Shown here piece by piece: positions 2,624-31,250 of a stretch of 34,082 nucleotides of DNA. The position numbers and the translations under genes are program-made. The stretch is from Halorhabdus amylolytica (GTDB lineage: Archaea > Halobacteriota > Halobacteria > Halobacteriales > Haloarculaceae). Within the stretch, counting starts at the first letter, position 1. Every line of letters begins with the position of its first letter. A model generated the notes under the pieces. It was not told the DNA's origin, made no database searches, and worked only from the letters and a program-made list of their open reading frames with translations. The stretch lies in contig NZ_SPQG01000022.1 in assembly GCF_004944975.1 (NCBI RefSeq), positions 1 through 34,082 on the forward strand. The letters are read 5' to 3'.

Positions 2624-2869
2624 CTACTCGTGGACATGGATGTGGGCGTGTACCTCGACGACGAGCCGGCCGTCATCGCCGACGTTGAGGCTGGCCGTCG
2701 CACCCGGCCCTGCGTCGCTCGTGGCCCCGTCAGGGGCGTCCTGATTGCTCTCGTGGACTGGGTGCTGTTTCCCACACGACGGGCAGCGTGTCGTGTCCTG
2801 GCCGGGAGCGACGCCGTCGCGGGCGGTGTCGAAGACGGTTCCGCACCGCTCGCACTCAACTTCGGTCAT
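2624..2869 (-). CDS. Zinc-ribbon protein, 81 aa
   Basis: The N-terminus holds two CxxC knuckles (CERCG near residue 6 and CPSCG near residue 29), the pattern of a zinc ribbon. The C-terminus is a short beta-type segment rich in His (EVHAHIHVHE). The ATG at 2869 overlaps the end of the upstream gene by 14 bp, so it is the last member of the operon that starts at 5559. Likely a small nucleic-acid- or protein-binding protein; specific role unknown. Confidence 0.65.
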   Translation of the reverse strand: MTEVECERCGTVFDTARDGVAPGQDTTRCPSCGKQHPVHESNQDAPDGATSDAGPGATASLNVGDDGRLVVEVHAHIHVHE

Positions 2870-3086
2870 CGTCCTGCCCCGGAAAGCACGCCCTGCAGGG
2901 GTCGTAGTGCGATTCGATCAGTGAGCGTTCTTTCTCCAGCAGGCTCCGGCCATCCGCCCCACAGAGCGGCCGTAACTCGCTGTCAGGCATCCGGACAGCC
3001 TTGTGGTACACTCTTCCGCCATTCCCAGCGAAGGTGAGGACCGTCTCTGTGGCGTTGTCCTCCCCGTCGTCGGTAGCGACATCCAT
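2856..3086 (-). CDS. Small cysteine/histidine-rich protein, 76 aa
   Basis: The start is ATG at 3086, overlapping the TGA of the TnpB-like gene (TGATG); a GTG three bases earlier is also possible. Cysteines occur in LCGADG and in HYDPCRACF, giving one possible metal site near the C-terminus. The N-terminal segment ETVLTFAGNGGRVYHKA looks like two beta strands. No family recognised. Part of the overlapping minus-strand operon. Confidence 0.6.
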   Translation of the reverse strand: MDVATDDGEDNATETVLTFAGNGGRVYHKAVRMPDSELRPLCGADGRSLLEKERSLIESHYDPCRACFPGQDDDRS

Positions 3087-3748
3087 CACAGCTCACCTTT
3101 GATCTTGTCGACGGCGCGTCGAGCGATCGAGACAGCGGCGCTTCGATCGCGATCGACGGTCTCGACAGGGCAGTCTGGCGTCGTACAGGTGATCGTCTCG
3201 TCCTCGACGTGAGCGAGCAGCTCGCACTCGTGGCAGGCGTTGGTCGTGTGTGTCGGATCGACGTACACGGGGTGATATCCGGCGTCACCCAGCGCGGTCT
3301 CCAGGCGGTCCTGAACGACGGGAAAGAGCCACGCGTCGAGGTCCTTCCCCTGGGTTCGCGCGTCGGTCAAGGACACCCACTCCTGGCCGAGTGCCTCGAG
3401 GGCGACGACGTCCGCGTCATGGGCCGCCAGATAGCCCAGCAGCGTCGCGATCGCGTCGTCGACGTGGTCCACGAGCAACGCCCGGTAGTGTCGATCGAGA
3501 CGGACAGCGTCGCTCTTCGCGTCGTCTGTCGTCGCCTGGCGCCGGCGAGTCGCTTCGCGAAGGTCAGCGAACAGCGCCCGGGCCGGCTCGCCGTCAACGC
3601 TGACGGCGCTCGCCACGTCGGGCGTGGCATCCGCTGGCGCGGCCGTGAAGAGCTGTCGAAGTCCCAGGTCCACGCCGACGATCGTGGGATCGTCGTCTGG
3701 CCCAGGCGTGGCGTTGGCCGTCGCGACGGGCGACGTGTGGCTACTCAT
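3086..3748 (-). CDS. TnpB-like RuvC/zinc-ribbon protein, lacking the N-terminal half
   Basis: 220 aa. TnpB is the RNA-guided nuclease of IS200/IS605 elements. The three RuvC blocks are visible: D27 in IVGVDLGL, E118 in VVALEAL, and DRDRSAAVSIARR with D199/D201. A zinc ribbon sits between blocks II and III (CHEC at 172-175, C188 and C193, preceded by the typical DPTHTTNACHEC). All three acidic positions are kept. The ~150-residue N-terminal part that binds guide RNA and target DNA in TnpB (about 370-400 aa) is missing. The ATG at 3748 overlaps the upstream gene by 8 bp, so the protein is built into an operon with no tnpA and no visible transposon ends. It may be a domesticated nuclease, a regulator or a shortened relic. 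Family assignment is solid; function is open. Confidence 0.82.
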   Translation of the reverse strand: MSSHTSPVATANATPGPDDDPTIVGVDLGLRQLFTAAPADATPDVASAVSVDGEPARALFADLREATRRRQATTDDAKSDAVRLDRHYRALLVDHVDDAIATLLGYLAAHDADVVALEALGQEWVSLTDARTQGKDLDAWLFPVVQDRLETALGDAGYHPVYVDPTHTTNACHECELLAHVEDETITCTTPDCPVETVDRDRSAAVSIARRAVDKIKGEL

Positions 3749-4097
3749 CAGCCACCTCCCGATCGAGGTGCTCCAGTGGGTCGATGTCGTCGGTACTCCC
3801 GCGGCCGATTGATTCGTGCATGACACGGTACGGGATCGGTGGAACTGGGTCGCCCCACGGTTCGACGCCCGCAACGGGTGCGGCGTAATCCTCGACACAG
3901 CGGCGTGCATGGTTCAACGCCAACCGTAGCTGGCGAACCTGTTCGTGGGTCACGGCCTCGCCCTTACGGAGTGTATCCTCGACGTCGTGAGACGCTTCTA
4001 CAAGCTCGGTACGGGCTTTGCCGAGCTCGCTACGCAGGAGCCCACGCCCCACGTCTTCCCACCTGACACCGCACTCTCGATCGTCGCGTGGTGTCAC
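3741..4097 (-). CDS. Helical hypothetical protein, 118 aa
   Basis: Mostly alpha-helical by composition: residues of about 18-70 form a continuous heptad-like helix (LLRSELGKARTELVEASHDV, then VRQLRLALNHARRCVEDYAA). A Pro-rich turn and an acidic tail follow. The start at 4097 overlaps the TGA of the upstream gene in ATGA. No family recognised. It lies directly before the TnpB-like gene and could be its partner by position only. Confidence 0.6.
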   Translation of the reverse strand: MTPRDDRECGVRWEDVGRGLLRSELGKARTELVEASHDVEDTLRKGEAVTHEQVRQLRLALNHARRCVEDYAAPVAGVEPWGDPVPPIPYRVMHESIGRGSTDDIDPLEHLDREVADE

Positions 4098-4480
4098 GCC
4101 GATCCCTCCAGTTCGGCCTCACGCTCGCGCTTTTTTTCGAGGACCTCGATGAACGCCTCGTGGGCCTCTTCATCGGCGTCGATCGCGTCGTAGTTGATGT
4201 CACAGGCAATCCAGCCGGCACAGTCACCGCAGAGTATCCCCGTGAGCCGGCCCGGAAGGTCCGCGGGCCCAAGCGGGAACTCCAACTCAATCGGGAACCC
4301 AGTCTCGACCGGGTCGCCACACTGCATACAGACGCCCTCAGGGAGATCGTGATCCTGCACGAGCTGGCAGGCACGGCAGATGTCCGCCTCGAGGGGCGCG
4401 ATCGGCGCGACGGTCGTGTGATCGACCATCTCCGGCAGCTTTTCCGCGCCACAGACCTCGCACTCCTGGCGGTCAGGCAT
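4094..4480 (-). CDS. Four-CxxC zinc-finger protein, 128 aa
   Basis: The start at 4480 (MPDRQECEVCG) overlaps the upstream gene by 8 bp. Four knuckles are visible: CEVC (7-10), CRAC, CMQC and CGDC, making two treble-clef or ribbon-type zinc sites, followed by a helical charged C-terminus (EAFIEVLEKKREREAELEGSA). No catalytic motif. Probably a nucleic-acid- or protein-binding component made together with the SWIM and TnpB-like proteins. Confidence 0.65.
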   Translation of the reverse strand: MPDRQECEVCGAEKLPEMVDHTTVAPIAPLEADICRACQLVQDHDLPEGVCMQCGDPVETGFPIELEFPLGPADLPGRLTGILCGDCAGWIACDINYDAIDADEEAHEAFIEVLEKKREREAELEGSA

Positions 4481-4775
4481 CGATTCCGCCACCTCCTGCT
4501 TCGTCCTTCGAGCCTTGAAGCGCCCGGGCGGCGTCCTCGGCGAGTTGTGGCCGTGGCGTGGTCGTCGCCGAGCGCCCAGCGTACTGATCGAGGACCTCAT
4601 CGATGGACAACCCGAACTCGCTGGCAGTCCGTCGGCCACTCGGCAGGGCCCGCGACGCCGTCGAGTAGTACCGGACACCGTCGTGTGGGATCCGCTTGCG
4701 GGCCTCCAGATCCCCCTCGTCGGTCACGAGAAGCGTGTAGTCACCGTCGCCGGCATCGTCGATGACGCGGGCCAT
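4473..4775 (-). CDS. Hypothetical protein, 100 aa
   Basis: The start at 4775 overlaps the TGA of the upstream gene (ATGA). The N-terminal 35 residues alternate like beta strands (YTLLVTDEGDLEARKRIPHDGVRYY); a helical stretch (ASEFGLSIDEVLDQYAG) and a Gly-rich tail follow. Not recognised. Confidence 0.58.
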   Translation of the reverse strand: MARVIDDAGDGDYTLLVTDEGDLEARKRIPHDGVRYYSTASRALPSGRRTASEFGLSIDEVLDQYAGRSATTTPRPQLAEDAARALQGSKDEAGGGGIDA

Positions 4776-5038
4776 CAGGCATCACCGCCGTCGCGGATGT
4801 GGGAGATGGCATCGACCAGTGCGTCCAGGCCCTCGCCGTCCAGCGTGAGCTCAACGCGGGTGTCTTCATCCGACGCGAACAGTGTCGCGTGTGGCTCGCT
4901 TGTACTCAGTGGCGTGTAGTCCGGCGCTTTGATGTGGAGTTTCGTGTCCGCTTGTGACTCCATCTCAAGCTTGCCCTCCTGGATCCGTGCGGTGACGGCG
5001 ACGTCGTCGATCGTGGTGACGTCTGCAAGGGGTGGCAT
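4775..5038 (-). CDS. Hypothetical protein, 87 aa
   Basis: The start at 5038 overlaps the stop of the SWIM-protein gene (ATGA). The composition suggests two or three beta strands, then a C-terminal helix (GEGLDALVDAISHIRDG). No cysteines and no known motif. Second gene of the minus-strand operon. Confidence 0.58.
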   Translation of the reverse strand: MPPLADVTTIDDVAVTARIQEGKLEMESQADTKLHIKAPDYTPLSTSEPHATLFASDEDTRVELTLDGEGLDALVDAISHIRDGGDA

Positions 5039-5559
5039 CAGATATCACCGTCCTCGGCGCTCGCCGGCGTCTCGAAGCCCTCGCGGTAGCACGCGAAGCA
5101 CGGCAGGTCTGCGTCAGTGTTCCACTCGCCGCACTCGCAGTCGTCGGGGCGGCCGTCGTCCTTGATGTCGGGCTCAAGGATCTCGCCGTCGTCACTGGCG
5201 ATGATGATCCCACCGTCAGCAGCTGCGACCTGTGGCGTGGCCTCGACGTGGTCGCCCAGCTGCTCGTCGATCGCGCCGGTGTCGGCCCACGACGGGATCG
5301 TCCGCTCGCCCGTCGCAAACTCCGCACGCCGGATGTGTTTACAGCGTGCCTCTCTGTACTCGTGGTCGGGACAGGTGCAACGCTCTTCGCGAAGATCGAC
5401 GCCGTAGGTGCCGCCGTTCTCGCCGACGACGGTGTAGACGTCACCCCCCTTCGGCAGGACGCTCATGCACTCCGTGAGCGCTCGGGCATCGCGATCATCG
5501 AGGTCGGTACGTCGGTCCGTGGCGGCAGTCTGAAGTGCCGCCGAGTCGTGTTTCGACAT
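5038..5559 (-). CDS. SWIM zinc-finger protein
   Basis: 173 aa. A SWIM finger (CxCx(n)CxH) is clear at about residues 61-76: CTCPDHEYREARCKHIRR, preceded by a beta hairpin (DVYTVVGENGGTYGVDLREER), as in known SWIM proteins. SWIM fingers bind DNA or protein partners and are common in haloarchaeal plasmids and viruses. A second possible metal site, CECG with CFAC, lies near the C-terminus. First gene of the operon running down to 2624, with its promoter in the repeat-bearing gap at 5560-5760. Confidence 0.75.
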   Translation of the reverse strand: MSKHDSAALQTAATDRRTDLDDRDARALTECMSVLPKGGDVYTVVGENGGTYGVDLREERCTCPDHEYREARCKHIRRAEFATGERTIPSWADTGAIDEQLGDHVEATPQVAAADGGIIIASDDGEILEPDIKDDGRPDDCECGEWNTDADLPCFACYREGFETPASAEDGDI

Positions 5560-8477: not shown

Positions 8478-8523
8478 GGTGGTCGAATGGGGTACCTCGG
8501 CCGCGGATGACGCGTGTCTGACT

Positions 8524-8552
8524 TAATCTTAAGATTAGGGCTAACCTTAGGG
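8524..8552. promoter_or_regulatory. TAATCTTAAGATTA palindrome and TTAGGG-type repeats upstream of the ATPase gene
   Basis: A perfect 14-bp palindrome TAATCTTAAGATTA (8524-8537) is followed by GGGCTAACCTTAGGG, ending 10 bp before the ATG at 8562. The same AAGATTA core occurs at 9487-9512, 9929-9942 and 11386-11409 and nowhere else that I noticed. A site for autoregulation or partitioning is likely. Confidence 0.7.
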
Positions 8553-8561
8553 CAGGTGTGT

Positions 8562-10122: not shown

Positions 10123-10163
10123 TTAACCAACAGACGCGCGCTCGCGTTGCTGGTGTTGGTTAA
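10123..10163. promoter_or_regulatory. Inverted repeat IR4, TTAACCAACA / TGTTGGTTAA, 21-bp spacer
   Basis: A perfect 10-bp inverted repeat at the 3' end of the broken gene 10160-10867. The TAA stops of both minus-strand frames of that pseudogene lie within its arms. Confidence 0.78.
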
Positions 10164-10867
10164 TCTCCATCGCACCACGGAGGCGCACCGAACGCCTCGG
10201 CGTAGCAGTCCGGGTAACAGGGCTCTTTCCGGTTGTTCGGCCACACCTGGTTGAGTGGGGCCGGCTCCCCGCAGAGCCCACACTCGGCGCTGTGACCCGC
10301 CTGACGGGCGTCCGGCGAGAGGTTTTCGCCTCGATGTGGAGCTCGTGCAACGCCCACGGCGTGAGGCGGACGGCGACGCGTTCCGCCGGCGCAGGATCCT
10401 CTTCCGAAGTCGTGGCCGAGAGGGTGAGTACCCAGTCGTCGCCCGGCTCGCCGTCAGTCGCGGGTCCGAGGGCGATCGTCTCCGCGAGGTCGTCGTCGAC
10501 GAAGAACCACTCGGCATCTCGATCGACGTGGTAGTGCCCCGAGGGGCGTGGATCCTCGGGATCGACGTTGTCAGCTATCGTCTCTCTCGCTGGCTCAGGC
10601 GTCGCCTTCCGGCCTCCATTCGACGATGTCGTGAGCGGGAGATCGACGTCGATCTCGTCGTACCACACCACCGGCCGCTTCGCGCGGCCGTCCCCTTGGA
10701 GTTCGACCAAGCCGTAGTCGGCCAGCTCGTTCACGTTCTCGAGGACCTCGATTCGATAGAGTTGGTTCACTGGGTTCGACGTCCTCGCTGGCGTCGATCG
10801 CCGCGAGACGATCCTCGAGGTCGCTTCGGTCGGTGGGCTTGATCTGGACGTGAAGTGTTCGGGTCAT
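10160..10867 (-). pseudogene. Broken TumA/HVO_A0114-type antitoxin fused to a second copy of the 140-aa CxxC protein
   Basis: Three frame pieces belong together. 10867 starts MTRTLHVQIKPTDRSDLEDR...EPTLS, the N-terminus of the haloarchaeal HVO_A0114-type winged-helix family (TumA-like antitoxins). About 40 residues are then missing, and the frame changes near 10755-10765 to NVNELADYGLVELQGDGRAKRPVVWYDEIDVDLPL, the C-terminal half of that family. This runs on into DPEDPRPSGHYHV...VRLTPWALHELHIEAK, a copy of the protein at 5995-6417. At a run of four A (plus-strand T at 10323-10326) one base is missing, and the rest (NLSPDARQAGHSAECGLCG to the C-terminus) continues in another frame. One internal deletion and two frame changes point to a pseudogene; a sequencing error could explain the second change only. 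Confidence 0.75.
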
Positions 10868-14894: not shown

Positions 14895-14920
14895 GTTTCA
14901 CTTGTAAGAGTGGTGTGTCT
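14895..14920 (-). repeat. Origin-recognition-box-like repeat 3 (inverted)
   Basis: GTTTCACTTGTAAGAG then TGGTGTGTCT, the reverse orientation of copies 1 and 2. It overlaps the orc1 stop codon by two bases. Confidence 0.75.
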
Positions 14921-16148
14921 ATACGACGTCGTTCATCGTTGCGATTTCCCTGATCGTCTGGATTTCTCCATCCAACCGGAGTACATCCGACATGGCCTCA
15001 ATTGCGCTCGTGAAGGGAACGTCGAGTTGGTAACTGTAGTAGTTCCCCCGGGAGCCACTCCGATTTTCGTGGGCAGACAAGATCCCGAGCATCCGTAGAT
15101 CCGAGAGGTGGTTGTGTAGCGAGCGCTGAGCCAGCGTATCAGTTTCAGATGACTCACAGAGCGTGGTGTACTCCTCGTAGATGTCCCGAGTTCGGCACGG
15201 CGTCTCTTCCTTCGCCGCTTTGGAGATGACGGCCAACAGGGCGAGACGGCCATGCGTCGTCAGCTCGCGCATCCCTTCTTCGACGCGCTCCTGTTCGAGT
15301 CTCGAGCGTGCTGTCTCGACGTGATCCTCAACGATGACATCATCGCCCTGGTTCTCGGCTATCTCGCCAGCGAGGCGAAGTAGGTCCAGAGCCTGGCGGG
15401 CACTCCCGCTGTCACGAGCGGCGAGCGCAGCGCAGTAATTCAGAACACCGTTCTCTACAGCGCCCTCGGCGATCGCGACCTCTGCTCGCGAGGAGAGGAT
15501 GTTCTCAAGTTCAGGAGCATCGTACGGCGGGAACTGGAGTTCCCGTTCACAGAGCGTGTCTTGGACGCGAGGATCCAGCTGCTCGCGGAATTTGAAGTCA
15601 TTACTGATGCCGATGACACCGACTTTGGCTGACTCAAGGTACCCATTGGCGCGAGCTCGAGGGAGTTCGTAGAGGAGTTCGTCGCGACCGCCAATCGAGT
15701 CCACCTCATCGAGAATGATCAAGATCGTCCCACCGATGGCATCAAGCTCCTCGTACAGTTTCTTGAAGACGGTCTGCTGGGGATACCCCGTGGAACTGAT
15801 TTCCCCGCCAGCAGGACGGAGTTTGTTCACGAGTTCGACGGCAACCTGATACGAGGAGTTCAGTGTCTTGCAGTTCAGGGAGATGACTGAGAGATCGACA
15901 TCATCGTAATCAGTGACGTCTTCTTGGAGTTGATCCATCAGATAATCAGTCACGGCAGTCTTCCCCACACCGGTATTCCCGTAGAGAAAGATATTGTTCG
16001 GCTCCCATCCGTCGACGACAGGCTGAAGAGCATCCATGTACTCCTCGATCTCCTCGTCACGCTCCTCGATCCGATCAGGTTGATAGGACTCCCCCAGGGC
16101 ATCCTTGTTGCGGAAGATGTTCTGCTTCCGCTCAAACCGCCGAGACAT
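14919..16148 (-). CDS. orc1/cdc6: Orc1/Cdc6 replication initiator
   Basis: 409 aa, the usual length. Walker A is GNTGVGKT (57-64), Walker B TILIILDEVD (141-150), followed by the conserved GISNDFKFREQLDPRVQ initiator-specific and sensor region and, at the C-terminus, a winged helix (DIYEEYTTLCE...LAQRSLHNHLSDLRMLGIL). Archaeal Orc1/Cdc6 binds origin recognition boxes and loads the MCM helicase. Boxes of one family lie on both sides of this gene and nowhere else that I noticed, so it is very probably the initiator of this element. A TATATAAAA element sits 23 bp before the ATG, fitting a leaderless transcript. Confidence 0.95.
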   Translation of the reverse strand: MSRRFERKQNIFRNKDALGESYQPDRIEERDEEIEEYMDALQPVVDGWEPNNIFLYGNTGVGKTAVTDYLMDQLQEDVTDYDDVDLSVISLNCKTLNSSYQVAVELVNKLRPAGGEISSTGYPQQTVFKKLYEELDAIGGTILIILDEVDSIGGRDELLYELPRARANGYLESAKVGVIGISNDFKFREQLDPRVQDTLCERELQFPPYDAPELENILSSRAEVAIAEGAVENGVLNYCAALAARDSGSARQALDLLRLAGEIAENQGDDVIVEDHVETARSRLEQERVEEGMRELTTHGRLALLAVISKAAKEETPCRTRDIYEEYTTLCESSETDTLAQRSLHNHLSDLRMLGILSAHENRSGSRGNYYSYQLDVPFTSAIEAMSDVLRLDGEIQTIREIATMNDVV

Positions 16149-16873: not shown

Positions 16874-18445
16874 GTGACCGAGTTCGAGATCACGCCTCGT
16901 GGTGGGGTCGAAGAAGTCGGCCGGTCGTGCTATCAGGTCCAGACCGGCGATCGTGACTACCTCGTCGATTGTGGCCTCAAACAGTCCCACACGGCCGAGT
17001 TCCCCACGTTCCGGGGACTGGAGCCTGGGCAGATCGACGCGGTGTTCGTCACCCACGCCCATATTGACCACATCGGTGGGCTTCCCGTCGCTGAACAGCG
17101 TGGCCTGTTCGCCGACGACGCGTCGATCATCATGACACGGCCAACGAACGCCCTCGCTACGATTCTCCTTCACGACTCCCTGCAGATCCACAAGCAGGAG
17201 GCCGACGAACTCGGGCGGCCGCAGGAGTTCACCAGCGACGACGTCAAGCGCGTCCTCGATCGCGTCACCAGCGTCGGCTATGATCGCGACCATCACCTCA
17301 ACGTCACCTACGAGTTCGGCGACGCCGCGCACCTGCTGGGCAGCTCGTGGCTCGCCCTCGAATTCGACGAGCGGCGGGTCGTCTTCTCAGGTGACCTCGG
17401 CGGCCGTAGCGCCCACCTGGACGACATCGACGACCCGCCGGAGGCCGACGAACTCCTCCTTGAGTCCACGTACGGAGACACGATGCAGCACCGGTCGTTC
17501 AGCGATGCCCGGACTGAGGTCTACGAGCAGGCCAAGCAGGCCCAGGCGTCAGGGATACCGGTCCTCATCCCGACGTTCGCCGTCGGTCGGGCTCAAGAAA
17601 TCCTCCAGCTCTTCCGAGAACGTGAGGACGATCTTCGGAGCGCTGTCGATGGCGAGCCGTCGATCGTCTACGATGGGATGATCACGGACTCGATGCCCGT
17701 CTACGAGGTCTTCTGCCAGGACGAGTTCATGGGCGATTCCATAATCAACTACCGGATCAACTCCAACGACGCCGAGCCGTTCACGCCGGAGTGTGCCTGG
17801 ACGCCCGAGACGATGGACGAACGAGAGCGCCTTCTTGACGGCGACAACGCGCCGATCATCGTCGCGCCGTCGGGCATGCTCACCGGCGGCTGGTCGCCGT
17901 ACTACCTGCGAGACCTCGCCCGGCACTACGACGAGGCACGAGTGCTCTTCATCGGCTACCAGGCCGAAGGGACGCCTGGCCGAGAGATCCTCGACGCGCC
18001 GGGCGACGATGCCAACGTTCAGATCACGGCGCTGCCGGCTGCCGAAGACTACGATCCCGAGACCGACGACTTCGGCTTCCAGGAGCAGAAGATTCGTATA
18101 CCGACCGCATGGGTGCGTGAGATCGGCGGGATGTCTGGCCACGCCGCCGCGAACGATCTACTTGAGTTCGCTCGCGAAGCCGATCCGCTGGGGATTTCAC
18201 TCGTTCATGGGCCACCAGGCGCGGCAACACACCTTCGGGAGCACCTTGCCGACAACACCGACGCGGAGCGGGTGCAGACTGGGCAGCACCTTGCGACGAT
18301 CGAGGTCGGCCAGTCCGACGTGATCACGCCGGACGTCGAACGCCTGCTTGAACGGCAGACCCGTCTCGAAGAAGAACTGGATGCTCTTCGCGAAGAGATC
18401 GAAAAAGTGGCGAATCGCCAGCGAGCGCGTGAGAAAAAGAACTGA
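16874..18445 (+). CDS. Beta-CASP metallo-beta-lactamase-fold RNase-like protein
   Basis: 523 aa from GTG 16874. Motif 2 is HAHIDHIGG (61-69); later metal ligands follow in AAHLLGSSW and FSGDLGG; the beta-CASP marks are the central insert (VLIPTFAVGRAQEIL ... GMITDSM), GGMSGHAAANDL and the final VHGPPGA. This is the architecture of archaeal CPSF/RNase J-type enzymes, which process or degrade RNA. The N-terminal KH domains of aCPSF1 are absent, and a C-terminal coiled coil (about 490-523, LEEELDALREEIEKVANRQ) is added. Encoded just beyond the origin and alone in its transcript. It might control plasmid RNA levels; that is inference. Confidence 0.88.
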   Translation: MTEFEITPRGGVEEVGRSCYQVQTGDRDYLVDCGLKQSHTAEFPTFRGLEPGQIDAVFVTHAHIDHIGGLPVAEQRGLFADDASIIMTRPTNALATILLHDSLQIHKQEADELGRPQEFTSDDVKRVLDRVTSVGYDRDHHLNVTYEFGDAAHLLGSSWLALEFDERRVVFSGDLGGRSAHLDDIDDPPEADELLLESTYGDTMQHRSFSDARTEVYEQAKQAQASGIPVLIPTFAVGRAQEILQLFREREDDLRSAVDGEPSIVYDGMITDSMPVYEVFCQDEFMGDSIINYRINSNDAEPFTPECAWTPETMDERERLLDGDNAPIIVAPSGMLTGGWSPYYLRDLARHYDEARVLFIGYQAEGTPGREILDAPGDDANVQITALPAAEDYDPETDDFGFQEQKIRIPTAWVREIGGMSGHAAANDLLEFAREADPLGISLVHGPPGAATHLREHLADNTDAERVQTGQHLATIEVGQSDVITPDVERLLERQTRLEEELDALREEIEKVANRQRAREKKN

Positions 18446-23751: not shown

Positions 23752-24225
23752 ATGAGCGGAGATTCTACAACCAGTAGCCAACATGCCACTGACCCCGAGA
23801 GCGTTATACTCGGTAATGGTGGCTCCGACTACGCAGCTGTCGAAGTCCCGACGACCAAGCCGCACGAGGAGTTCTCCGCCGAAGAACGGCGTGCTGCCAT
23901 CTTGGACATCATAACCGACGTCGGACACCCTTCTCGACTCAATCAAACCGAGCTCGCAGAGCGCTTCGGCGTCAGCCAGCCGATGATCCACAAGGACCTC
24001 GACGCGCTGTCGGACTACGTTGCCGACAACCTTGGCGATCGCCACGAACTCGAGATCGAGAGCGTGTTTCGCCGTTCGATCCAGGGCCTTCTCGACGAGG
24101 GCGAGTGGCGTAAGGCGGCTCGTACCGCGAAGGAGTACAGTGAATGGATGACGGAGCGGACTGACCTCGACGAAATTCAGGACGAACTGGAATTCCTCAG
24201 AGAAGCACACCAAGAGAAAGAATGA
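23752..24225 (+). CDS. HTH protein, possible small terminase subunit
   Basis: 157 aa from ATG 23752, with GGAGGT 7 bp upstream (a TTG at 23746 is the alternative). The N-terminus is disordered. Residues of about 60-100 hold a clear helix-turn-helix (RLNQTELAERFGVSQPMIHKDLDALSDYVADNL), followed by an acidic helical tail (WMTERTDLDEIQDELEFLREA). This order, HTH then oligomerising helices, is typical of small terminase subunits, and the gene opens the block that leads to tail genes. A plain transcription regulator is the alternative. No large terminase gene follows; the next gene overlaps by ATGA. Confidence 0.62.
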   Translation: MSGDSTTSSQHATDPESVILGNGGSDYAAVEVPTTKPHEEFSAEERRAAILDIITDVGHPSRLNQTELAERFGVSQPMIHKDLDALSDYVADNLGDRHELEIESVFRRSIQGLLDEGEWRKAARTAKEYSEWMTERTDLDEIQDELEFLREAHQEKE

Positions 24226-25157
24226 CACGTACTACCAAAATCAAGGACGACCTTGGGGACGTATCGGAAGAGGTTCTCAGCGAACTCACGCCCGACGAGC
24301 GCCTGCAACTGTTTATCCAGGCTTCCGCCGAGCATCGCGAGGACCGATTAGAACAACTCGCCGAGACTGCCCCCACGAAGACCTACGAAATGACAGAGGT
24401 CGAGTTCGCAAAGGGGATGCGACAGACGAAACTGCTGTCGCTCACAGCCCGTCACCAAATCCAGACACGGTACGCTGAACTCGATCTCAACCTTGCCCGT
24501 CGGGATCGGTACCTGGCGCTGTTCCTTCTGAACGGCGCACTGGATGAACTCCGGGATGGGATTTCCATCGACGAGTACGGCAACGTCACCACCAACAGTG
24601 AGATGGACGCTGATGGATCGCCGTCCCCATCGACTGGTGTCAAGGCATTAGCCGACGAGTACCGGGATCTGTGGGATGACGTATCGACTGATCCCCTGCT
24701 GTCGGAAAGCGAGCGTGATCGAGACCTCTTCGCCGAGCTCGCAGCATCAGGCCTCCTTGGCTACCCGAAGGACATCTCCGGCAGCGAGTTCGAGGATCTG
24801 GACGGTTCCCGTATCTTTTCGGAGGTCTGGCGAACTGAACTCAAGCTCGTCAAAGCCGCATCCGACTTCTACAGGGTCTTCATCGCGTGGCAGATCTTCG
24901 CCGAGGAGCACGTCGGCGTTTCCCTCGATGAGTTCCTCGGCGTCACTGACCTCGAAGACGATGGGAAGGTGGGCCGAGAGACCTTCGAGATCGATGAGGA
25001 GCTGTGCGAAAACATGCTGGAATTACATAGTGACTACGTGGACGCCTACGAAGGTTTTCCAGAGGAACTGCCGGGGGACGGTGAGGATGCAAACCTCGAT
25101 GCGGAAGCCAGGACTCGCGCCGAGCAGATGATCGCGATGTCGGAACTCCCGGTCTGA
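24222..25157 (+). CDS. Hypothetical protein coupled to the small-terminase-like gene, 311 aa
   Basis: Starts in the ATGA overlap with the preceding gene. All-helical and acidic, for example LTPDERLQLFIQASAEHREDRLEQLAE and TRYAELDLNLARRDRYLALFLLNGALDELRDG. No Walker motif, so it is not the terminase ATPase, and no portal-like or capsid-like pattern. By position it may be a partner of the HTH protein. Not recognised. Confidence 0.65.
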   Translation: MTRTTKIKDDLGDVSEEVLSELTPDERLQLFIQASAEHREDRLEQLAETAPTKTYEMTEVEFAKGMRQTKLLSLTARHQIQTRYAELDLNLARRDRYLALFLLNGALDELRDGISIDEYGNVTTNSEMDADGSPSPSTGVKALADEYRDLWDDVSTDPLLSESERDRDLFAELAASGLLGYPKDISGSEFEDLDGSRIFSEVWRTELKLVKAASDFYRVFIAWQIFAEEHVGVSLDEFLGVTDLEDDGKVGRETFEIDEELCENMLELHSDYVDAYEGFPEELPGDGEDANLDAEARTRAEQMIAMSELPV

Positions 25158-25164
25158 ACTTAGC

Positions 25165-25293
25165 GTGATCTCGCATCCGATTGTTGGGCCCGCTCCAGTT
25201 GTCGTCGATCTGGAGCATCGCCTTCCAACCGAGCCCCTGCTCTTCGAGTACTTCCTCGACGGGAAGGAATTCCCGCCGCTGGAAGGGGTCTGA
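25165..25293 (+). CDS. Possible 42-aa protein in the gap before the convergent gene
   Basis: GTG at 25165, seven bases after the previous stop, reads MISHPIVGPAPVVVDLEHRL...EYFLDGKEFPPLEGV with GC-rich third positions, but there is no ribosome binding site. The opposite strand also has an open, protein-like frame here (SDPFQRREFLPVEEVLEEQG...), so I cannot decide which, if either, is used. Confidence 0.3.
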   Translation: MISHPIVGPAPVVVDLEHRLPTEPLLFEYFLDGKEFPPLEGV

Positions 25294-25309
25294 GAAAACG
25301 GTTCGGAAG

Positions 25310-26776
25310 CTACTCTTTGCGGCTGTACTCCCAGTCCTCAACGCTGATCTGAGCGGCGGCCGCGTCGATCTTGGCGGCCTCGTCTGGCCCTGACTTGTGG
25401 CCCCCGACTGGTCCGAAGAAGTACCCGAACGCATCCTCGACGAGCAATTCGCCGTAGGGTGTCAGGCTCCAGCCGGTGTTATCTCCCTCGAGGATTGCGC
25501 GCTCGAACTCACGGCCCGCGAGGTCAGTGCAGAGCTTCGTGACGGCGGCCTTGTCGTCGACATCCCCGATCTCCTTGGCGATGTCGGCTGATCGTACCTT
25601 ACCGTCCTGCTCAACCACCTGCTCAAGGACCTCGGTGGCTTCGACGTTTTTCCAGTGGGCGTCTTCGATGGCTCCGGTGTCCTCCTTCACGAGAACGTTC
25701 AGTTTGCCCTTCGCGACGAGGTAATTCTCCGAGACGATTGTCAGAACGTCGTCCTCGTCGACGACTTCGGCAGGGTCGAACTCCTCCAGCGGACCGTACT
25801 GGCGCTGGAAGAGATTCCACTGGCCGCTGGTACCCGGCTCGTTGTGGATGAGCGGGTCGTCGTCAATGTCGTCGGGTTCGTCGACGAGGTGATCGATCAG
25901 ATGGTCCAGGACCTCGTCGGCGAAGATCCCGTCGTCGCTGGTCTCGTCATGGTACTCGTCGAGGTTCTCGTTCAGGCTTTCGGCCCGGTCCTCGTCGCGG
26001 TACTTGAGCTTCCCACCGTGCTTCGGCTGGATCGGGAGCCCGGCATCGTAGAGGACGTCACGAATGAGGTCCGTCATCTCGAAGCGCATCTGCATCCACT
26101 GGTCGGACCGCTCGCGATCCTCTTCATGCTGCTGGAGCCACTCGTCGTCGATATCCGCCTCACGTTCGAGGCGGTTCTGCTGGTACTCGATGAACTCCTG
26201 CTTCAGCTCCCGTCGGCCGTCGCCCATCACGGCGAACGCGGGTTCGTCGCCGCGGAAGAAGCCGTCCGTCAGCCCCCACGCGATCTCCTTCGCCATCTGC
26301 TCCTCGTCGATGCCCTCGGGGAACAGCATCAGCCGCCGGAGCGCGACACCGAACTGGAAGGCGAGCTGTTCGGGTGCCGACGACGGCCGGGCGCGCCCCG
26401 GCTGTGGGCTGACGCGGCACGCCTCGAGGATGTCGCTGTGGTCGGGGTCCTCGGCGATGACCTCCTTATCGTTGTGGGTCGATGGGACGCGGCGATCGGC
26501 CTTCGGTCGGTAGCCGGTGTCATCGAACCCGATGAAGTCGATCCAGGACTCGCCCCAGTGGTCGTCGTCGAGGTAGCTATTGTGCGCAAGTAGCTGGATG
26601 TCTGAGAGGAGGTGGTCGACGCGTTGCGGGAGAGCGTCGATCTTCTTCTGGACGCGCTTTTCCATCTCACCCTCTCGGTAACTGCCTGGATTCCCGGTCG
26701 CGACGAACTGACGCTCTCGGGTAGTGAGGGGATAAGACGGCCGGCCGTGCTTGGCTGTCGAATCGTCATCACTCAT
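25310..26776 (-). CDS. Repressor-like protein, 488 aa, divergent from the tail genes
   Basis: The start at 26776 (MSDDDSTAKHGRPSYP) lies 26 bp from the symmetric promoter palindrome at leaderless distance; the open frame extends further upstream but only antisense to the tail tube gene. The N-terminal block LTTRERQFVATG...GEMEKRVQKKIDALPQRVDHLLSDIQLL resembles the start of haloarchaeal HTH regulators such as the 283-aa protein here. The middle is acidic and helical. The C-terminus (residues of about 400-470, WKNVEATEVLEQVVEQDGKVRSADIAKEIGDVDDKAAVTKLCTDLAGREFERAILEGDNTGWSLTPYG) is a winged helix. Position opposite the late genes suggests control of the tail operon. Function inferred. Confidence 0.68.
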   Translation of the reverse strand: MSDDDSTAKHGRPSYPLTTRERQFVATGNPGSYREGEMEKRVQKKIDALPQRVDHLLSDIQLLAHNSYLDDDHWGESWIDFIGFDDTGYRPKADRRVPSTHNDKEVIAEDPDHSDILEACRVSPQPGRARPSSAPEQLAFQFGVALRRLMLFPEGIDEEQMAKEIAWGLTDGFFRGDEPAFAVMGDGRRELKQEFIEYQQNRLEREADIDDEWLQQHEEDRERSDQWMQMRFEMTDLIRDVLYDAGLPIQPKHGGKLKYRDEDRAESLNENLDEYHDETSDDGIFADEVLDHLIDHLVDEPDDIDDDPLIHNEPGTSGQWNLFQRQYGPLEEFDPAEVVDEDDVLTIVSENYLVAKGKLNVLVKEDTGAIEDAHWKNVEATEVLEQVVEQDGKVRSADIAKEIGDVDDKAAVTKLCTDLAGREFERAILEGDNTGWSLTPYGELLVEDAFGYFFGPVGGHKSGPDEAAKIDAAAAQISVEDWEYSRKE

Positions 26777-26785
26777 ATTGCGTGT

Positions 26786-26833
26786 GAAGGTAGTTTCACA
26801 GGATACATAAATGTATCTTGGGAAGCTACCTTC
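26786..26833. promoter_or_regulatory. 48-bp imperfect palindrome forming a bidirectional promoter
   Basis: The two 24-bp halves match at 20 positions: GAAGGTAG at one end, CTACCTTC at the other, and GATACAT-AA-ATGTATC in the middle. The centre (ACATAAATGT) can be a TATA box for both directions: it lies about 33 bp from the minus-strand ATG (26776) and about 31 bp from the plus-strand ATG (26841), so both transcripts would be leaderless. Confidence 0.75.
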
Positions 26834-26840
26834 TTTTGCA

Positions 26841-27065
26841 ATGGGCGAACCGGCCGGCTTCCACGCTGAGAAAACTATCGTGGACCAGTCAGCCATTGAT
26901 GGCGCGCTTGACTCGATGGCCGAATTGTATGAGTCCACCGGGCAGGAGAACAGCGTCGCCTCCGGAATGGTGGAGACGCTCCGCGAACACAACGCCGACC
27001 TTGACCAAGTCGACGAGGTCCTCGATGGCCGGCGCCGCGACCCCAGTGCATCTTGCAAGGAATAA
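26841..27065 (+). CDS. Small helical protein, first gene of the tail operon, 74 aa
   Basis: MGEPAGFHAEKTIVDQSAIDGALDSMAEL...GMVETLREHNADLDQVDEVLDGRRRD: acidic, two to three helices. The start at 26841 is at leaderless distance from the shared TATA centre; an in-frame ATG ten codons earlier lies inside the palindrome and is less likely. Unknown function; a helper or regulator of the tail genes by position. Confidence 0.58.
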   Translation: MGEPAGFHAEKTIVDQSAIDGALDSMAELYESTGQENSVASGMVETLREHNADLDQVDEVLDGRRRDPSASCKE

Positions 27066-27068
27066 TAT

Positions 27069-27143
27069 ATGAGACAGAACACGCTTTCCGAGCACGACGA
27101 AACGACCGACACCGCCGCCACTGAGGTGATGTACCGATGGTGA
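27069..27143 (+). CDS. Possible 24-aa leader peptide overlapping the tail tube start
   Basis: ATG 27069 reads MRQNTLSEHDETTDTAATEV and stops at TGA 27141-27143, just past the tail tube ATG (27137). Such an overlap could couple translation of the tail tube gene. Too short to judge on composition. Confidence 0.3.
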   Translation: MRQNTLSEHDETTDTAATEVMYRW

Positions 27144-28108
27144 GCGGTGTGAACACGGAGGTCGCGTACCTCCACGAGCCCGTCGACGACTACACCGGCA
27201 CGCCGACTGACAGCGACTACAAGATCCCCGGCATTGGGACGACCGTCGAGGAACTCGCTATCGACAACGCGCTCCAGCGAATCCGCGTCCCGAACGCCGC
27301 CCAGGCCGCCGAGACAGTCGCCGGGAACTTCGAGGGCGCGTTCAACGTGAACTTCACCCTCGGTAATCCCTGGTGGTTGAATCATGTATTCGGCGGCCCA
27401 CCTGAAGCTGGCGGCGAGTCCGACGCGCCGTATACCTACACCTGGGACTTCGAGACTGACCGCGTCCAGTCCTCGCGCTGGTACATCGGCGCGAACTTCT
27501 ACAACAACACCGTCGAGCGGGTGCTGAAGGGCGTTGTTTTCGGCGGTCTGCAGGTTCAGTGTCAGGTCGGCGAGACCGTCCAGGTCGACCTCACCGGCTT
27601 CTATGGTGACGAGGAACGCAACTCCTCGATCACGCCGGGGTCGACGCCCGACGAGCAGGCCAATCCGCTGGTCTTCCACGGTGCCACGCTTGAAGTCCCG
27701 AGTTCTTCGGAGCTGAAGAAGCTCCAAGACTTCACGGTGGACATCCAGACCGGCGCCCGGCCGGTTCAGGGTATGCAGCGCAAGCCCCATGACGCCGTGA
27801 TGGGTGCTGTCGAGACGGAGCTCTCCGTGAATGAGGTCCTCACCGAGACCGATCAGCTGGCGCTCGCCTACGGCAACTCGAACGCCCCGGTCAACGGCCG
27901 GATGGACGGCGCCGCTGACGGGACAGTCCGCTTCGACGGGCCGCCCTCAGGTAACACCGCGATAGAGTTCCAGATGACCGGCGTGAAGCCGAACGACTAC
28001 AGCTGGAACAACGTCGGGAACGCCGAGGAAAACCTCAGCGAGGCGATTACCTACTACGTGAATAAGGTGAGCGCGCTCGCCGAGAGCTCGCAGGACACCG
28101 CCCGCTGA
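27137..28108 (+). CDS. Major tail tube-like protein
   Basis: 323 aa. Composition and pattern fit tailed-virus tube proteins: strand-rich, with a long N-terminal loop region (YKIPGIGTTVEELAIDN), WYIGANFYNNTVERVLKGVVFGGLQVQCQVGETVQVDLTGFYGDE, where viral tube proteins have their main sheet, and a late segment (LQDFTVDIQTGARPVQGMQRKPHDAVMGAVETELSVNEVL) typical of the tube-type fold. The next genes are a frameshifted chaperone and a tape measure protein, the invariant order in tailed viruses. Name is based on both pattern and order. Confidence 0.75.
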   Translation: MVSGVNTEVAYLHEPVDDYTGTPTDSDYKIPGIGTTVEELAIDNALQRIRVPNAAQAAETVAGNFEGAFNVNFTLGNPWWLNHVFGGPPEAGGESDAPYTYTWDFETDRVQSSRWYIGANFYNNTVERVLKGVVFGGLQVQCQVGETVQVDLTGFYGDEERNSSITPGSTPDEQANPLVFHGATLEVPSSSELKKLQDFTVDIQTGARPVQGMQRKPHDAVMGAVETELSVNEVLTETDQLALAYGNSNAPVNGRMDGAADGTVRFDGPPSGNTAIEFQMTGVKPNDYSWNNVGNAEENLSEAITYYVNKVSALAESSQDTAR

Positions 28109-28183
28109 CGATGTTCGTGAACAGCCCGAGGATGACCCGACCGCAGGCGGTGCTCCCAGCCTGCCGGTCGGTGATCGAGCGAT

Positions 28184-28213
28184 CCAGCGCCACGGGAGCG
28201 CCGACGGCGCTGG
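28184..28213 (+). other. Hairpin between tail tube and chaperone genes
   Basis: CCAGCGCC (28184-28191) pairs perfectly with GGCGCTGG (28206-28213) over a 14-nt loop in the 147-bp gap between genes. It could reduce read-through and set a high tube-to-chaperone ratio, or slow mRNA decay. No T-run follows. Confidence 0.4.
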
Positions 28214-28255
28214 CAGTAGCTTCTCTCCCGCCCACTCAGGGCCGGAGGTACCACT

Positions 28256-28801
28256 ATGCCACGAACCACGAAAACGTTCGACCTGAAGGAAGAGGAACAG
28301 CGCATCGACCGCGAGATGAACGAGGCCGCCGACGAAGCCGCCGAAGCCGAGGACGGGAGCCGTACCCACGAGGAGGCGATGGCCCGCGGAAAGCTCCTCG
28401 AGCGAGAGCTCGCTGGCGTCCAGTGGGCGCTCTACCCCGACGAGGAAGAGGACCGCGACCCCTACGAGGAGGTGACGCTGGGGGCGCTGAACGCGCGCGA
28501 GTACGGCGAGATCGGCGACCGGGTGAAGACCGCAAAGGAGCAGTCCGCTGGGACAGCGTCCGGGCTGACGTCGATGGAGGGCGTCCAGCAGATCTTCTTC
28601 GTCGCCGGCGGGCTCGTCGACGCACCGTTTATCCCAGAGAACGCGAGTTTCGAGGAGAAGTCGCAGGCCGTCGGCGACCTCTCGCCGCAGTTCGTCACCT
28701 ACCTCCAGCAGCAGGTCGACGACCTCAGCACACCCAACGTCCAGGGAAACGGGTTCGCGCAGCGGGTCGCGGAGAGACAGTCGGCCGCGACGTCCGAGTA
28801 G
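28256..28801 (+). CDS. Tail assembly chaperone, short form (G-like)
   Basis: 181 aa, preceded by GGAGGTACCACT. Acidic and helical, with a disordered N-terminus (DLKEEEQRIDREMNEAADEAAEAEDGS) and a folded core (PYEEVTLGALNAREYGEIGDRVKTAKEQ...GVQQIFFVAGGLVDAPFIPENASFEEKSQAVGDLSPQFVTYLQQQVDDLS). It sits between the tail tube and tape measure genes, where tailed viruses encode the chaperone that coats the tape measure protein. Near its 3' end lies a slippery heptamer giving access to the -1 frame, so a longer fused form is also expected. Confidence 0.8.
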   Translation: MPRTTKTFDLKEEEQRIDREMNEAADEAAEAEDGSRTHEEAMARGKLLERELAGVQWALYPDEEEDRDPYEEVTLGALNAREYGEIGDRVKTAKEQSAGTASGLTSMEGVQQIFFVAGGLVDAPFIPENASFEEKSQAVGDLSPQFVTYLQQQVDDLSTPNVQGNGFAQRVAERQSAATSE

Positions 28802-28944
28802 CCTACGGGAAGGCGATGCTGATGTGGTGCGGCCACTCTCCCGACGAGATCGAGGAGTACGACTGGGCCGATGTCCAGCTGTTCCTCGAGGCGCTACCCG
28901 CAATCTGGTCGAACATGAACCTCATGGAGGCACCCGATGACTGA
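28256..28944 (+). CDS. Tail assembly chaperone, -1 frameshift extended form (GT-like)
   Basis: Ribosomes slipping one base back at GGGAAAC (28744-28750) leave the short frame after residue 165 (VQGN) and add 64 residues: RVRAAGRG...VAYGKAMLMWCGHSPDEIEEYDWADVQLFLEALPAIWSNMNLMEAPDD, ending at TGA 28942-28944, for 229 aa in all. The added part is the T-like domain: a helix with the MWCGHSPDEIEEYDW motif as in other viral tail chaperones. It has a possible internal ATG (28816) but no ribosome binding site in front, which favours frameshifting. It overlaps the tape measure start by 8 bp. Confidence 0.75.
28744..28750 (+). promoter_or_regulatory. -1 ribosomal frameshift heptamer GGGAAAC
   Basis: In the zero frame it reads caG GGA AAC, the X_XXY_YYZ phase needed for tandem slippage (GGA to GGG, AAC to AAA). 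It lies 48 bp before the zero-frame stop (28799-28801). A 7-bp stem, GTCGCGG (28766-28772) with CCGCGAC (28785-28791), follows 15 nt downstream. Confidence 0.75.
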
Positions 28945-30511
28945 CTTCTCCACCACCGCCAGTCTGTACGTACAGCTCGACGACAGCAGTGTCGGCGACG
29001 CCCGGGACCAGCTCGAAGACGAGCTGACGGCTGACCCCATCCAGGTTGAAGTCGAACCTGTCGAGCGCCCCGGCTCCGCGATGGAGGGCATCGGCGGGGG
29101 CGGTAGTGGTCGTGACAGCGGCGGCTTCAGCGACCTGTCCGAGCGGATGGAGTCTCAGGTGGGTGCGCTTGACGAGATCACCGACGCCTGGGATGAGAAT
29201 ATCGACCTGAACGAGCGCCGTAACGAGCTACTTGAGGAGATACAAGAGATCCAGGAGGATATCAAGCGAGCGAACTCCAGCCGCGCTCGGGGCGGTGGAC
29301 TCGGCAGCCTCCTTGGCGGTCCTGGAGGCATTGCTATCACCATCGGGCTGCTCGGGGCATCGAAGCTCATCAACGTGCTACGGAACTTCAGCTGGCCGGA
29401 ACTGCCTGACATCCCACCGATTGAGCCGCCGAAGATCCCACCGCTTGACGTTCCCGATAGCGTTCCGGTCGACATCTCGGATATCCCGGCACTCGATGTG
29501 CCGAACATCCCGCCGCTGGATATTCCGGACCTGCCGACGTTCACCTGGCCGGACCTTCCTGAATTCACGTGGCCGGATCTCCCCGGGTGGAGTTGGCCCG
29601 ATCTCCCCGAGTTCACCTGGCCCGATTTGCCTGAGTGGACGTGGCCGGACCTCCCCGAATTCACGTGGCCGGATCTCCCCGGGTGGAGTTGGCCCGATAT
29701 CCCGAAGCCCGACTGGCTCCCTTTCGGAGCGCCTGACGACGGGGACGGCGGAACCGGTAGTGGATCGCTAGTCCCGGATTGGATCCCTGGTCTCGACGAC
29801 GTCGGCGACGCCGGCGGGACTGCGTGGGACACGATCGCCGGCGTTGGCGAGGGTACGATCGACACCGTGACTGATGCCGGCGGGACTGCGTGGGACACGA
29901 TCACCGGCGCTGGTGGGAGTGCTGCGGATTGGGCCGGTGAGAACTCGGGGAACCTCCTCGCCGTTGGCTCTCTGCTCGGTGGCGGCGCCCTCGCCCTCGC
30001 TGACGGACCGTCCCCGATCGGAGACGCTCTCGGTGCGAATGTCGCCGCTGCAGGCGGTGGCAGTGCTTTACTTGGTGGTCTTCTTGGCGGCGCAGCGAGT
30101 GGGAATGACAGCGTCGGCGACTTCACGCAGGATCTCTTCGGCGACAACTGGGGAAGTTCCGCGACGGGCGGTCGGCACGGCTCACGCGGACAGGGTGTCG
30201 GTCCTATTGAGGGCTTCTTCGCCCGCCTGTACGAACCTCTCGCGCCGAACAGCGTTGGTGGCGGCAGAGGTACGAGTGTGGGCACCGCGTCGATGAGCGC
30301 CCACCGGAAGTACTGGGAGCGTCGCGACCGCAATCGACAGAGCCGGAATTCGGGGACTAAACCCCCGCAGATCAACTACAGCCCGACGTACGAAATCGAT
30401 ACACGAGAGCTCAAGCGTAAGGTCGACAGCGACATCAAAGAGGTAGAAAGACGGATTGGCGACCTTGAGAGCACGTTGGACAGAATTGAGAGAGCGGGGC
30501 GTGGAATCTGA
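28937..30511 (+). CDS. Tail tape measure-like protein with Trp-Pro repeats
   Basis: 524 aa, the longest gene of the tail block, starting 8 bp inside the chaperone's extended frame as is usual for tape measure genes. The N-terminal ~40 residues look like a small folded domain; a coiled coil follows (about 75-115, DENIDLNERRNELLEEIQEIQEDIKRA), then a hydrophobic segment (GGIAITIGLLGASKLINVL). Next is a Pro-rich region with seven 8-residue FTWPDLPE-type repeats (202-257), Gly/Ala-rich hydrophobic stretches and a final coiled coil (LKRKVDSDIKEVERRIGDLESTLDRI). At about 0.15 nm per residue the protein would set a tail near 80 nm. No lysozyme or peptidase motif seen. Confidence 0.75.
   Translation: MTDFSTTASLYVQLDDSSVGDARDQLEDELTADPIQVEVEPVERPGSAMEGIGGGGSGRDSGGFSDLSERMESQVGALDEITDAWDENIDLNERRNELLEEIQEIQEDIKRANSSRARGGGLGSLLGGPGGIAITIGLLGASKLINVLRNFSWPELPDIPPIEPPKIPPLDVPDSVPVDISDIPALDVPNIPPLDIPDLPTFTWPDLPEFTWPDLPGWSWPDLPEFTWPDLPEWTWPDLPEFTWPDLPGWSWPDIPKPDWLPFGAPDDGDGGTGSGSLVPDWIPGLDDVGDAGGTAWDTIAGVGEGTIDTVTDAGGTAWDTITGAGGSAADWAGENSGNLLAVGSLLGGGALALADGPSPIGDALGANVAAAGGGSALLGGLLGGAASGNDSVGDFTQDLFGDNWGSSATGGRHGSRGQGVGPIEGFFARLYEPLAPNSVGGGRGTSVGTASMSAHRKYWERRDRNRQSRNSGTKPPQINYSPTYEIDTRELKRKVDSDIKEVERRIGDLESTLDRIERAGRGI
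29540..29707 (+). repeat. Seven tandem 24-bp repeats coding for [FW][TS]WPD[LI]P[EGK]
   Basis: Seven 8-residue units (for example FTWPDLPE, WSWPDLPG) in the tape measure gene, preceded by a related Pro-rich part without Trp (IPPLDIPDLP). The 24-bp units are near-identical in DNA, which points to recent duplication and possible length change by slippage. Confidence 0.85.
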
Positions 30512-30551
30512 CGCCTCTATTCTTTTAATCCTGCGCCCGACACGTCAGTAT

Positions 30552-31250
30552 ATGGACCGACGCGCCTTCCTCACCAGCGCTGCCAGCGTCGCGATGGCCG
30601 CCAGTGCCGGCTGCCTCGGGACACAGGCCAGTGGCGAGGACAAGACGCCCACGGAGGACCGTGCCGTCGATATCGTCGACGTTCAACTCATCCACGAGGG
30701 CGAGGGCGCAGATACCGAGGTTCGCGCGGAGATCACGGCGGAGGCTGTGGCCGACCAGACGCTCGGTGAAGTCGTCGCGACGGCTACCTTCGTCGACGGC
30801 GAAACACTGCTTGGGAGTTGGGTCGCGGTGGTGAACGGGATGGAACCCGGCCAGCGCTGGCTAGTGTCAATCCGTAGCGGCGGCACCTCAGGTGAGGACG
30901 CGGCGGCCGTCGACGATGTTCAGGTGGTCGTTGAGGAGCGATCGCCAGCCTCGACGCTCGGGAGCGACCGGATCGAGATCGTCGACGAGGACCTCATCGC
31001 CGAGGACGGCGAGGCGCGGGTCGAGGGCGTCGCGAGGAACGCCGGAGAGGAGCGACTGGAGTACGCTACGGTCGTCGTGACGTTCGCCAGCGAGGATGGC
31101 GTCCTGCTCGGGCAGGCGCTCACGGACACGACGCGGGACATCGACGTCGGACAGCAGTTCGAGTTCTCCGTTCGGTACAGCGCACCCGTTCGGGCGGCCG
31201 ATGCGGTCGCCGACTACCAGCTGACCACCGAGGCCGATATTGAGAAGTAG
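30552..31250 (+). CDS. Twin-arginine exported lipoprotein
   Basis: 232 aa. The N-terminus is MDRRAFLTSAASVAMAASAGCLG: a twin-arginine motif (RRAFL), a hydrophobic core and a lipobox with Cys at residue 21, the usual signal of haloarchaeal surface lipoproteins. The mature part has two similar beta domains, VDIVDVQLIHEGEGADTEVRAEITAEA...GEVVATATFVDGETLLGS and IEIVDEDLIAEDGEARVEGVARNAGEERLEYATVVVTFASEDGVLLG, the FxLYD-type fold. A TTTTAATC about 27 bp before the ATG fits a leaderless promoter. In a virus-like block it could be a superinfection-exclusion protein; in a plasmid, just surface cargo. Confidence 0.8.
   Translation: MDRRAFLTSAASVAMAASAGCLGTQASGEDKTPTEDRAVDIVDVQLIHEGEGADTEVRAEITAEAVADQTLGEVVATATFVDGETLLGSWVAVVNGMEPGQRWLVSIRSGGTSGEDAAAVDDVQVVVEERSPASTLGSDRIEIVDEDLIAEDGEARVEGVARNAGEERLEYATVVVTFASEDGVLLGQALTDTTRDIDVGQQFEFSVRYSAPVRAADAVADYQLTTEADIEK

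Follow-up and report, generated by a model that had tools for sequence, protein, structure and literature searches.

How does a haloarchaeal circle come to encode the core of a virus tail and a protein of small-terminase type, yet no part of a virus head? The question is raised by contig NZ_SPQG01000022.1 of Halorhabdus amylolytica, a stretch of 34,082 nucleotides that was analysed over its whole length and is referred to here as the window. The first and last 54 bp of the contig are identical and are matched nowhere else in the assembly, and it is for this reason read as a circle, most likely of 34,028 bp after removal of an exact overlap such as an assembler leaves. A preliminary description of the segment 23752–31250 had pointed to the closed circle and its headless gene content, and had offered three explanations: a satellite-like element, a decayed phage-plasmid or a tail-derived structure with a use of its own. 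Of these, the first is best supported, the second is possible but less likely, and the third finds no support in a circle in which neither tip nor fibre is found. We favour, with a probability of about 0.4, the reading that haloarchaeal tailed viruses have a satellite-like plasmid in this circle, one that would redirect packaging and supply or alter tail cores.

A tail core and a small terminase-type gene without heads

Genes for a tail tube, a frameshifted tail assembly chaperone and a tape measure lie in canonical order, as previously described (Table 1). The tube is identified by PF18906 and phrog_18409, the chaperone by phrog_19457 and its GGGAAAC heptamer, and the tape measure by profiles of provirus tape measures, which match both of its ends; it also matches the tape measure of the IMG/VR contig L177 at 34.5% over 371 aa. 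The frameshift in the chaperone gene is taken as real because each of 22 homologous loci has a correctly phased heptamer at this position, which reads GGGAAAC in 21 cases. The tube, chaperone and tape measure open reading frames (ORFs) are intact, with no stops. Ahead of the operon lies what appears to be its own palindromic divergent control region, operator/promoter-like in character. The arms of this near-palindrome span 32 nt, 25 of which are complementary; some 60 random 201-bp stretches of the window reach 21 at most. The last gene of the segment (30552–31250) has the look of a Tat/lipoprotein-type gene and is not a tail gene.

Upstream of the tail operon is the helix-turn-helix (HTH) protein that had been likened to a small terminase. 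By gene order it is a member of a small terminase (TerS) family, an assignment made because phrog_15023 genes adjoin the gene for the large terminase (TerL) in nine viral loci, namely HSTV-1, where the adjacency spans the ends of the record, two IMG/VR contigs and six genomes. Five of 13 phrog_15023 members weakly match the TerS family phrog_57. An AlphaFold2 model for the family (predicted local distance difference test score, pLDDT, 72) comprises an HTH motif plus helices, and a search of the PDB returned generic HTH matches only.

The missing genes were sought in several ways. Custom profiles made from halovirus proteins gave no match to TerL, portal, protease or capsid in the circle, although such profiles miss divergent heads, and scans of most of its ORFs against PHROGs and Pfam yielded neither head genes nor TerL. 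No neck, tip, hub or fibre genes turned up in the circle, nor any vestige of a head gene, and the absences noted earlier, of baseplate and fibre genes as well as of the head module, are thus borne out. The 873-aa protein, which had been singled out for comparison with portal and capsid folds, is the replication protein RepH, and none of the unknown proteins emerged as a portal, capsid or TerL. In particular, the 311-aa protein was considered as a portal and rejected, as a profile comparison of its family with portals gave no match; its AlphaFold model from a single sequence had a pLDDT of 40 and was unusable. A broad six-member portal profile, which detected portals in 6 of the 10 genomes to which it was applied, gave no match in the host assembly, and neither did the nearest provirus's portal or capsid. 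We conclude that the circle supplies no heads and that, as far as can be seen, its host supplies none either.

Nine IMG/VR contigs that at first seemed headless were not counted: L177 has head genes, and L142, L143, L147, L149, L150, L166, L169 and L170 have head-like ORF modules.

TerL-less relatives of the TerS gene

In a tree of the TerS family, the copies on plasmids or integrated elements that lack TerL, the window included, form one group of ten (support 94/91). The window protein is closest to those of three 6–11.6-kb plasmids (97/92), not to that of phiCh1. The small-plasmid label changes only once on the tree, and none of 500 shuffles produced as few changes. The BJ1-type TerS was rejected as a relative, and is held to be a separate family, because comparison of the two profiles gave no match.

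The TerL-less relatives of the window range from 6 to 27 kb. In several, TerS is accompanied by a replication gene (for a P4/D5-type primase or RepH), a tyrosine integrase or both, with no TerL, portal or capsid, and D5/P4-type primases occur in several. Halomarina sp. BCD28 has a closed 10.8-kb plasmid (NZ_CP100453) with TerS, two paralogues of the 311-aa protein (44% and 35% identity to it) and an integrase 70% identical to that of the window. On the 7.0-kb circle G404:C6, TerS starts 4 bp after repH; further TerS circles are G073:C20 (11.2 kb; L125, 11,210 bp) and G295:C15 (9.2 kb). The 16.35-kb TerS units of Halomarina sp. PSR21 encode a P4-family primase, a relaxase and an ATPase of the type IV secretion system type, and stand in NZ_CP119995 (L119–L121, G094:C4) as near-identical tandem copies, possibly an assembly concatemer; a diverged relative of this element lies in the chromosome (L122). 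TerS copies in the larger contigs of G216, G312 and G119 sit near integrases, and neither tRNA sites nor att repeats were detected for these three.

The preliminary description had called for relatives with the same gene order. TerL-less TerS elements were indeed found, and their sharing of tail genes is limited to a tape-measure-like gene in two of them. The 27.4-kb contig G320:C10 (L216/L228) combines a P4/D5-type primase, a homologue of the 190-aa CxxC protein, TerS and a 994-aa tape measure (phrog_4200, 5e-8), with no tube, head or TerL found. For G073:C20, the evidence for a 341-aa tape-measure-like protein beside TerS is weaker, consisting of similar profiles and a weak match to phrog_32118; no other virion genes were found there, apart from a possible XkdF-like gene. 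The latter, an apparent XkdF-like protease, was set aside and not used, having come only from an iterated profile that already contained it, with PHROGs and Pfam blind to it. Overall, a tape-measure-like gene is present in 3 of about 14 TerL-less TerS elements examined, the window included, a proportion that refers to TerS elements only.

These relatives also bear on the main rival explanation, which we rate only slightly below the satellite reading: that the circle is a mosaic plasmid, in which TerS was turned long ago into a plasmid DNA-binding protein with a part in replication, partition or copy control, and the tail genes arrived recently as a piece of a provirus and have no present role. 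TerS directly follows RepH or primase genes in several plasmids, the TerL-less TerS clade is one old lineage, the tail genes are only three and lack a tip, and the window is plainly mosaic, with a beta-CASP/Orc1 region like that of other haloarchaeal plasmids, integrases and a TnpB-like gene. A roleless fragment is, however, harder to square with the tape-measure-like gene in two other headless members of the TerS set, or with tail ORFs, a −1 extension and a slippery site that are all intact behind a palindromic control region.

Origin of the tail genes

The window tube is 52–53% identical to tubes encoded on the chromosomes of two related haloarchaeal species, G221 and G226, and about 50% identical to that of a Halomarina rubra provirus; the tube tree groups the window with G221/G226 over the provirus (89/83). 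The provirus shares the tail and uses a TerS different from that of the window. The TerS and tail genes of the window are thus, on phylogeny, products of different virus lineages with separate histories.

Because of these separate histories, simple decay of a once-complete RepH phage-plasmid, with loss of head, neck and tip and retention of TerS and tail leftovers, is less likely, and we consider it improbable. Such a course is possible: RepH phage-plasmids that are complete, having a portal, protease and capsid as well as a tail module of related type, are known from Natrinema halophilum (57 kb) and G131:C13, and phiCh1 encodes RepH and a related integrase along with a phrog_15023 protein. 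Yet each of the window's TerS, RepH and integrase is nearer to plasmid counterparts than to that of phiCh1, the tube is of a different lineage, no head-gene remnants were found, and the genes that were kept are intact.

The loci in G221 and G226 are syntenic and headless, each with two divergent tail operons between housekeeping genes. They encode tubes, chaperones, hub-like or tip proteins and fibronectin-type fibre proteins. Many of the locus proteins are 60–90% identical between the two species, for which leucyl-tRNA synthetase gives 89%, and the whole G221 genome gave no match to the broad portal profile. We regard the locus as a candidate archaeal F-type tailocin-like system. That the nearest tube relatives of the window (53%; 89/83) belong to a conserved chromosomal locus of this kind, in two species, might suggest that the circle too encodes a tailocin-like particle or another tail structure that serves the host. 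A self-standing particle needs a hub, tip and fibre, which the chromosomal locus has and the window lacks, and we judge this explanation very improbable.

Comparison with known elements

Satellites that hijack the packaging of tailed viruses are well described in bacteria, and an integrase, a primase and TerS in the absence of TerL or capsid form the outline of bacterial phage-inducible chromosomal islands (PICIs). Like PICIs, among them the Staphylococcus aureus pathogenicity islands (SaPIs) and the phage-inducible chromosomal minimalist islands (PICMIs), the haloarchaeal elements are small, have an integrase, a primase or rep gene and TerS but no TerL or capsid, and encode a TerS distinct from the phage TerS clade (for bacterial islands of this outline, see PMC11364771, PMC10803314). 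The window itself has TerS without TerL, portal or capsid, and its own replication module (RepH and Orc1, with a P4/D5-type primase in several relatives). It has a XerC-type recombinase but is an unintegrated circle, and at 34 kb it exceeds the ~10–15 kb typical of PICIs. The haloarchaeal elements differ further in that their hosts are archaea, they are mostly plasmids with some integrated, some have RepH in place of a primase, and at least one member other than the window has a tape measure; their mobilisation by a helper is hypothetical. These elements also recall P4 and the capsid-forming PICIs, with which they share the P4/D5 primase family and partial sets of morphogenesis genes. Those satellites alter or make heads and borrow tails, whereas the window has tail-core genes and no heads.

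RepH replication is common to the window and to the phage-plasmids phiH, phiCh1, ChaoS9 and the 57-kb plasmid of Natrinema halophilum; phiCh1 and phiH also share the phrog_15023 gene, and the tail tube of the Natrinema plasmid is a related one. These elements carry full head and tail modules, with all the genes of a virion on a replicon of plasmid type, in contrast to the window, which is without TerL, portal, protease, capsid, neck and tip. Graaviviridae-type proviruses (BJ1, CGphi46 and the Halomarina rubra provirus) show the same succession of tube, frameshifted chaperone and tape measure as the window; there, the head module lies just upstream and the tip module just downstream, and the window has neither and a different TerS. 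An F-type tailocin, finally, is a full tail with tip and fibre and no head, a description that suits the G221/G226 loci, with their tip and fibre, and not the window.

A proposed satellite of tailed viruses

The gene content, intactness, gene families and phylogeny of the circle are established here, and among the explanations for them the satellite reading is best supported because TerL-less relatives exist that pair a primase or RepH with TerS, with or without an integrase, at least one of them (G320:C10) having a tape measure and no heads. The intact tail ORFs, slippery site and palindromic control region lend it further support. On infection by a tailed virus, the TerS of the plasmid would recruit the viral TerL to the plasmid, and the redirected TerL would package it into virus heads. 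The plasmid tail core would replace or compete with that of the virus, so that tails would be built on the plasmid tape measure and attached to the tip and neck proteins of the virus. Alternatively, the plasmid tube, chaperone and tape measure may spoil the tails of the virus.

Several points weigh against this proposal. Packaging and transfer of the circle by a helper are steps that we infer; the broad portal profile revealed no provirus with a portal in the host assembly; and the TerS type and tail type come from different virus lineages. A plasmid that brings only the tail core would depend on the helper for a tip and neck that fit, and tail genes are absent from most TerL-less TerS elements. 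The frequent position of TerS right behind the replication gene also fits a role in plasmid maintenance, and no satellite with a tape measure of its own was found in the literature searched.

Tail assembly, and the tape measure especially, is a known target of mobile-element defences, and interference with it is known from bacterial prophages and satellites (PMC11364771, PMC10884400). The plasmid tube, chaperone and tape measure might accordingly act as an antiviral decoy that disrupts tail assembly of an invader, as a structural-homologue counterpart of Tai/Tab inhibition. A tipless core could titrate out tips or chaperones, and such an action would be compatible with a satellite. Tai and Tab, however, are dedicated inhibitors and not sets of tail genes (PMC11364771, PMC10884400), and defence alone leaves the association with TerS unexplained; we hold a decoy to be quite improbable.

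The satellite reading can be extended, more doubtfully, to a haloarchaeal class of PICI-like satellites, some members of which, the circle among them, would carry a tape measure or tail core and reprogramme the tails of helper virions (their length, DNA delivery or exclusion) and not the heads. No haloarchaeal TerS satellites or archaeal tailocins were found in the full-text literature searched, whose coverage excluded most subscription journals, and the same literature held no report of PICI-like satellites in archaea or of satellites that have a tail core and lack a head. If correct, our proposal extends the satellite strategy to archaea and to the remodelling of tails. The TerL-less TerS clade offers small closed plasmids, such as that of Halomarina sp. 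BCD28, as concrete test objects.

Other genes of the circle

Table 1. Features of the window and of the related chromosomal loci
Feature	Position	Strand	Basis or remark
Whole contig (G000:C15)	1..34082	.	Circular by 54-bp exact terminal overlap
Accessory operon: SWIM zinc finger, zinc-finger proteins, TnpB-like	2624..5559	-	Partly common to G320:C10
Orc1/Cdc6 replication initiator	14919..16148	-	PF22703 2e-25, PF09079 6e-21
RepH plasmid/phage-plasmid replication protein, 873 aa	19857..22478	+	phrog_17376 7.8e-142
Coiled-coil/HTH-like protein of RepH operon, 123 aa	22475..22846	+	4-bp overlap with repH; weak Pfam coiled-coil matches only
CxxC protein, 190 aa	22843..23415	+	Homologue in G320:C10 sits between primase and TerS
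TerS-type HTH protein without TerL, 157 aa	23752..24225	+	phrog_15023 1.6e-35
Helical protein of plasmid family, 311 aa	24222..25157	+	Duplicated on small TerS plasmids
Protein divergent from tail operon, 488 aa	25310..26776	-	Homologue beside TerS in G119 element
Near-palindrome, 66 bp, operator/promoter-like	26777..26842	.	Fills gap between divergent 488-aa gene and tail operon
Acidic protein, first tail-operon gene, 74 aa	26841..27065	+	ORF; no family found
Tail tube protein, 323 aa	27137..28108	+	PF18906 (Phage_tube_2) 6e-15; phrog_18409 2.5e-64
Tail assembly chaperone, zero-frame product, 181 aa	28256..28801	+	phrog_19457 1.6e-12; homologues in 22 loci
Slippery heptamer GGGAAAC for -1 frameshifting	28744..28750	+	In only useful register
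Chaperone -1-frame extension	28751..28944	+	42-49% identity in related loci
Tape measure protein, 524 aa, WPxLP repeats	28937..30511	+	Profile-related to provirus tape measures
XerC-type tyrosine recombinase, 205 aa	31869..32486	+	PF00589 2e-27
Headless double tail locus	L134/L135, G221:C2 ~594-612 kb; L138/L173, G226:C1 ~1234-1253 kb		

The circle has two replication genes, RepH and Orc1/Cdc6. Its RepH is 36% identical to that of ChaoS9 and 42% identical to those of a Haloterrigena plasmid and G404:C6. The XerC-type recombinase is 70% identical to its counterpart on NZ_CP100453, 69% to that of G429:C41 and 44% to phiCh1 Int2. The 190-aa CxxC protein and its G320:C10 homologue share 27% over 196 aa (1.8e-10; profile 1.5e-9). 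No members of the 311-aa family were found in a scan of IMG/VR. The homologue of the 488-aa protein in the G119 element was found both by profile and by tblastn (6e-8), and the C-terminus of the window protein looks winged-helix-like from its sequence.

Five genes of the accessory operon are matched in G320:C10 (tblastn, 1e-7 to 2e-41). By eye, TTAACCAACA / TGTTGGTTAA motifs recur near several gene starts between about 2500 and 10200, and AATCTTAAGATTA-like repeats stand on either side of an AAA ATPase gene (8514–9491). The genes at 5995–6417 and 10159–10770 are paralogues (56% over 75 aa), with homologues of 46–78% identity on the TerS circles G073:C20 and G295:C15. A Halorhabdus tiamatea plasmid matches about 11% of the first 20 kb at 90% identity. 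A region with about this identity to that plasmid contains a beta-CASP metallo-beta-lactamase ribonuclease-like gene (16874–18445), a 52% homologue of which also lies near TerS in G374, a Natronosalvus rutilus plasmid.

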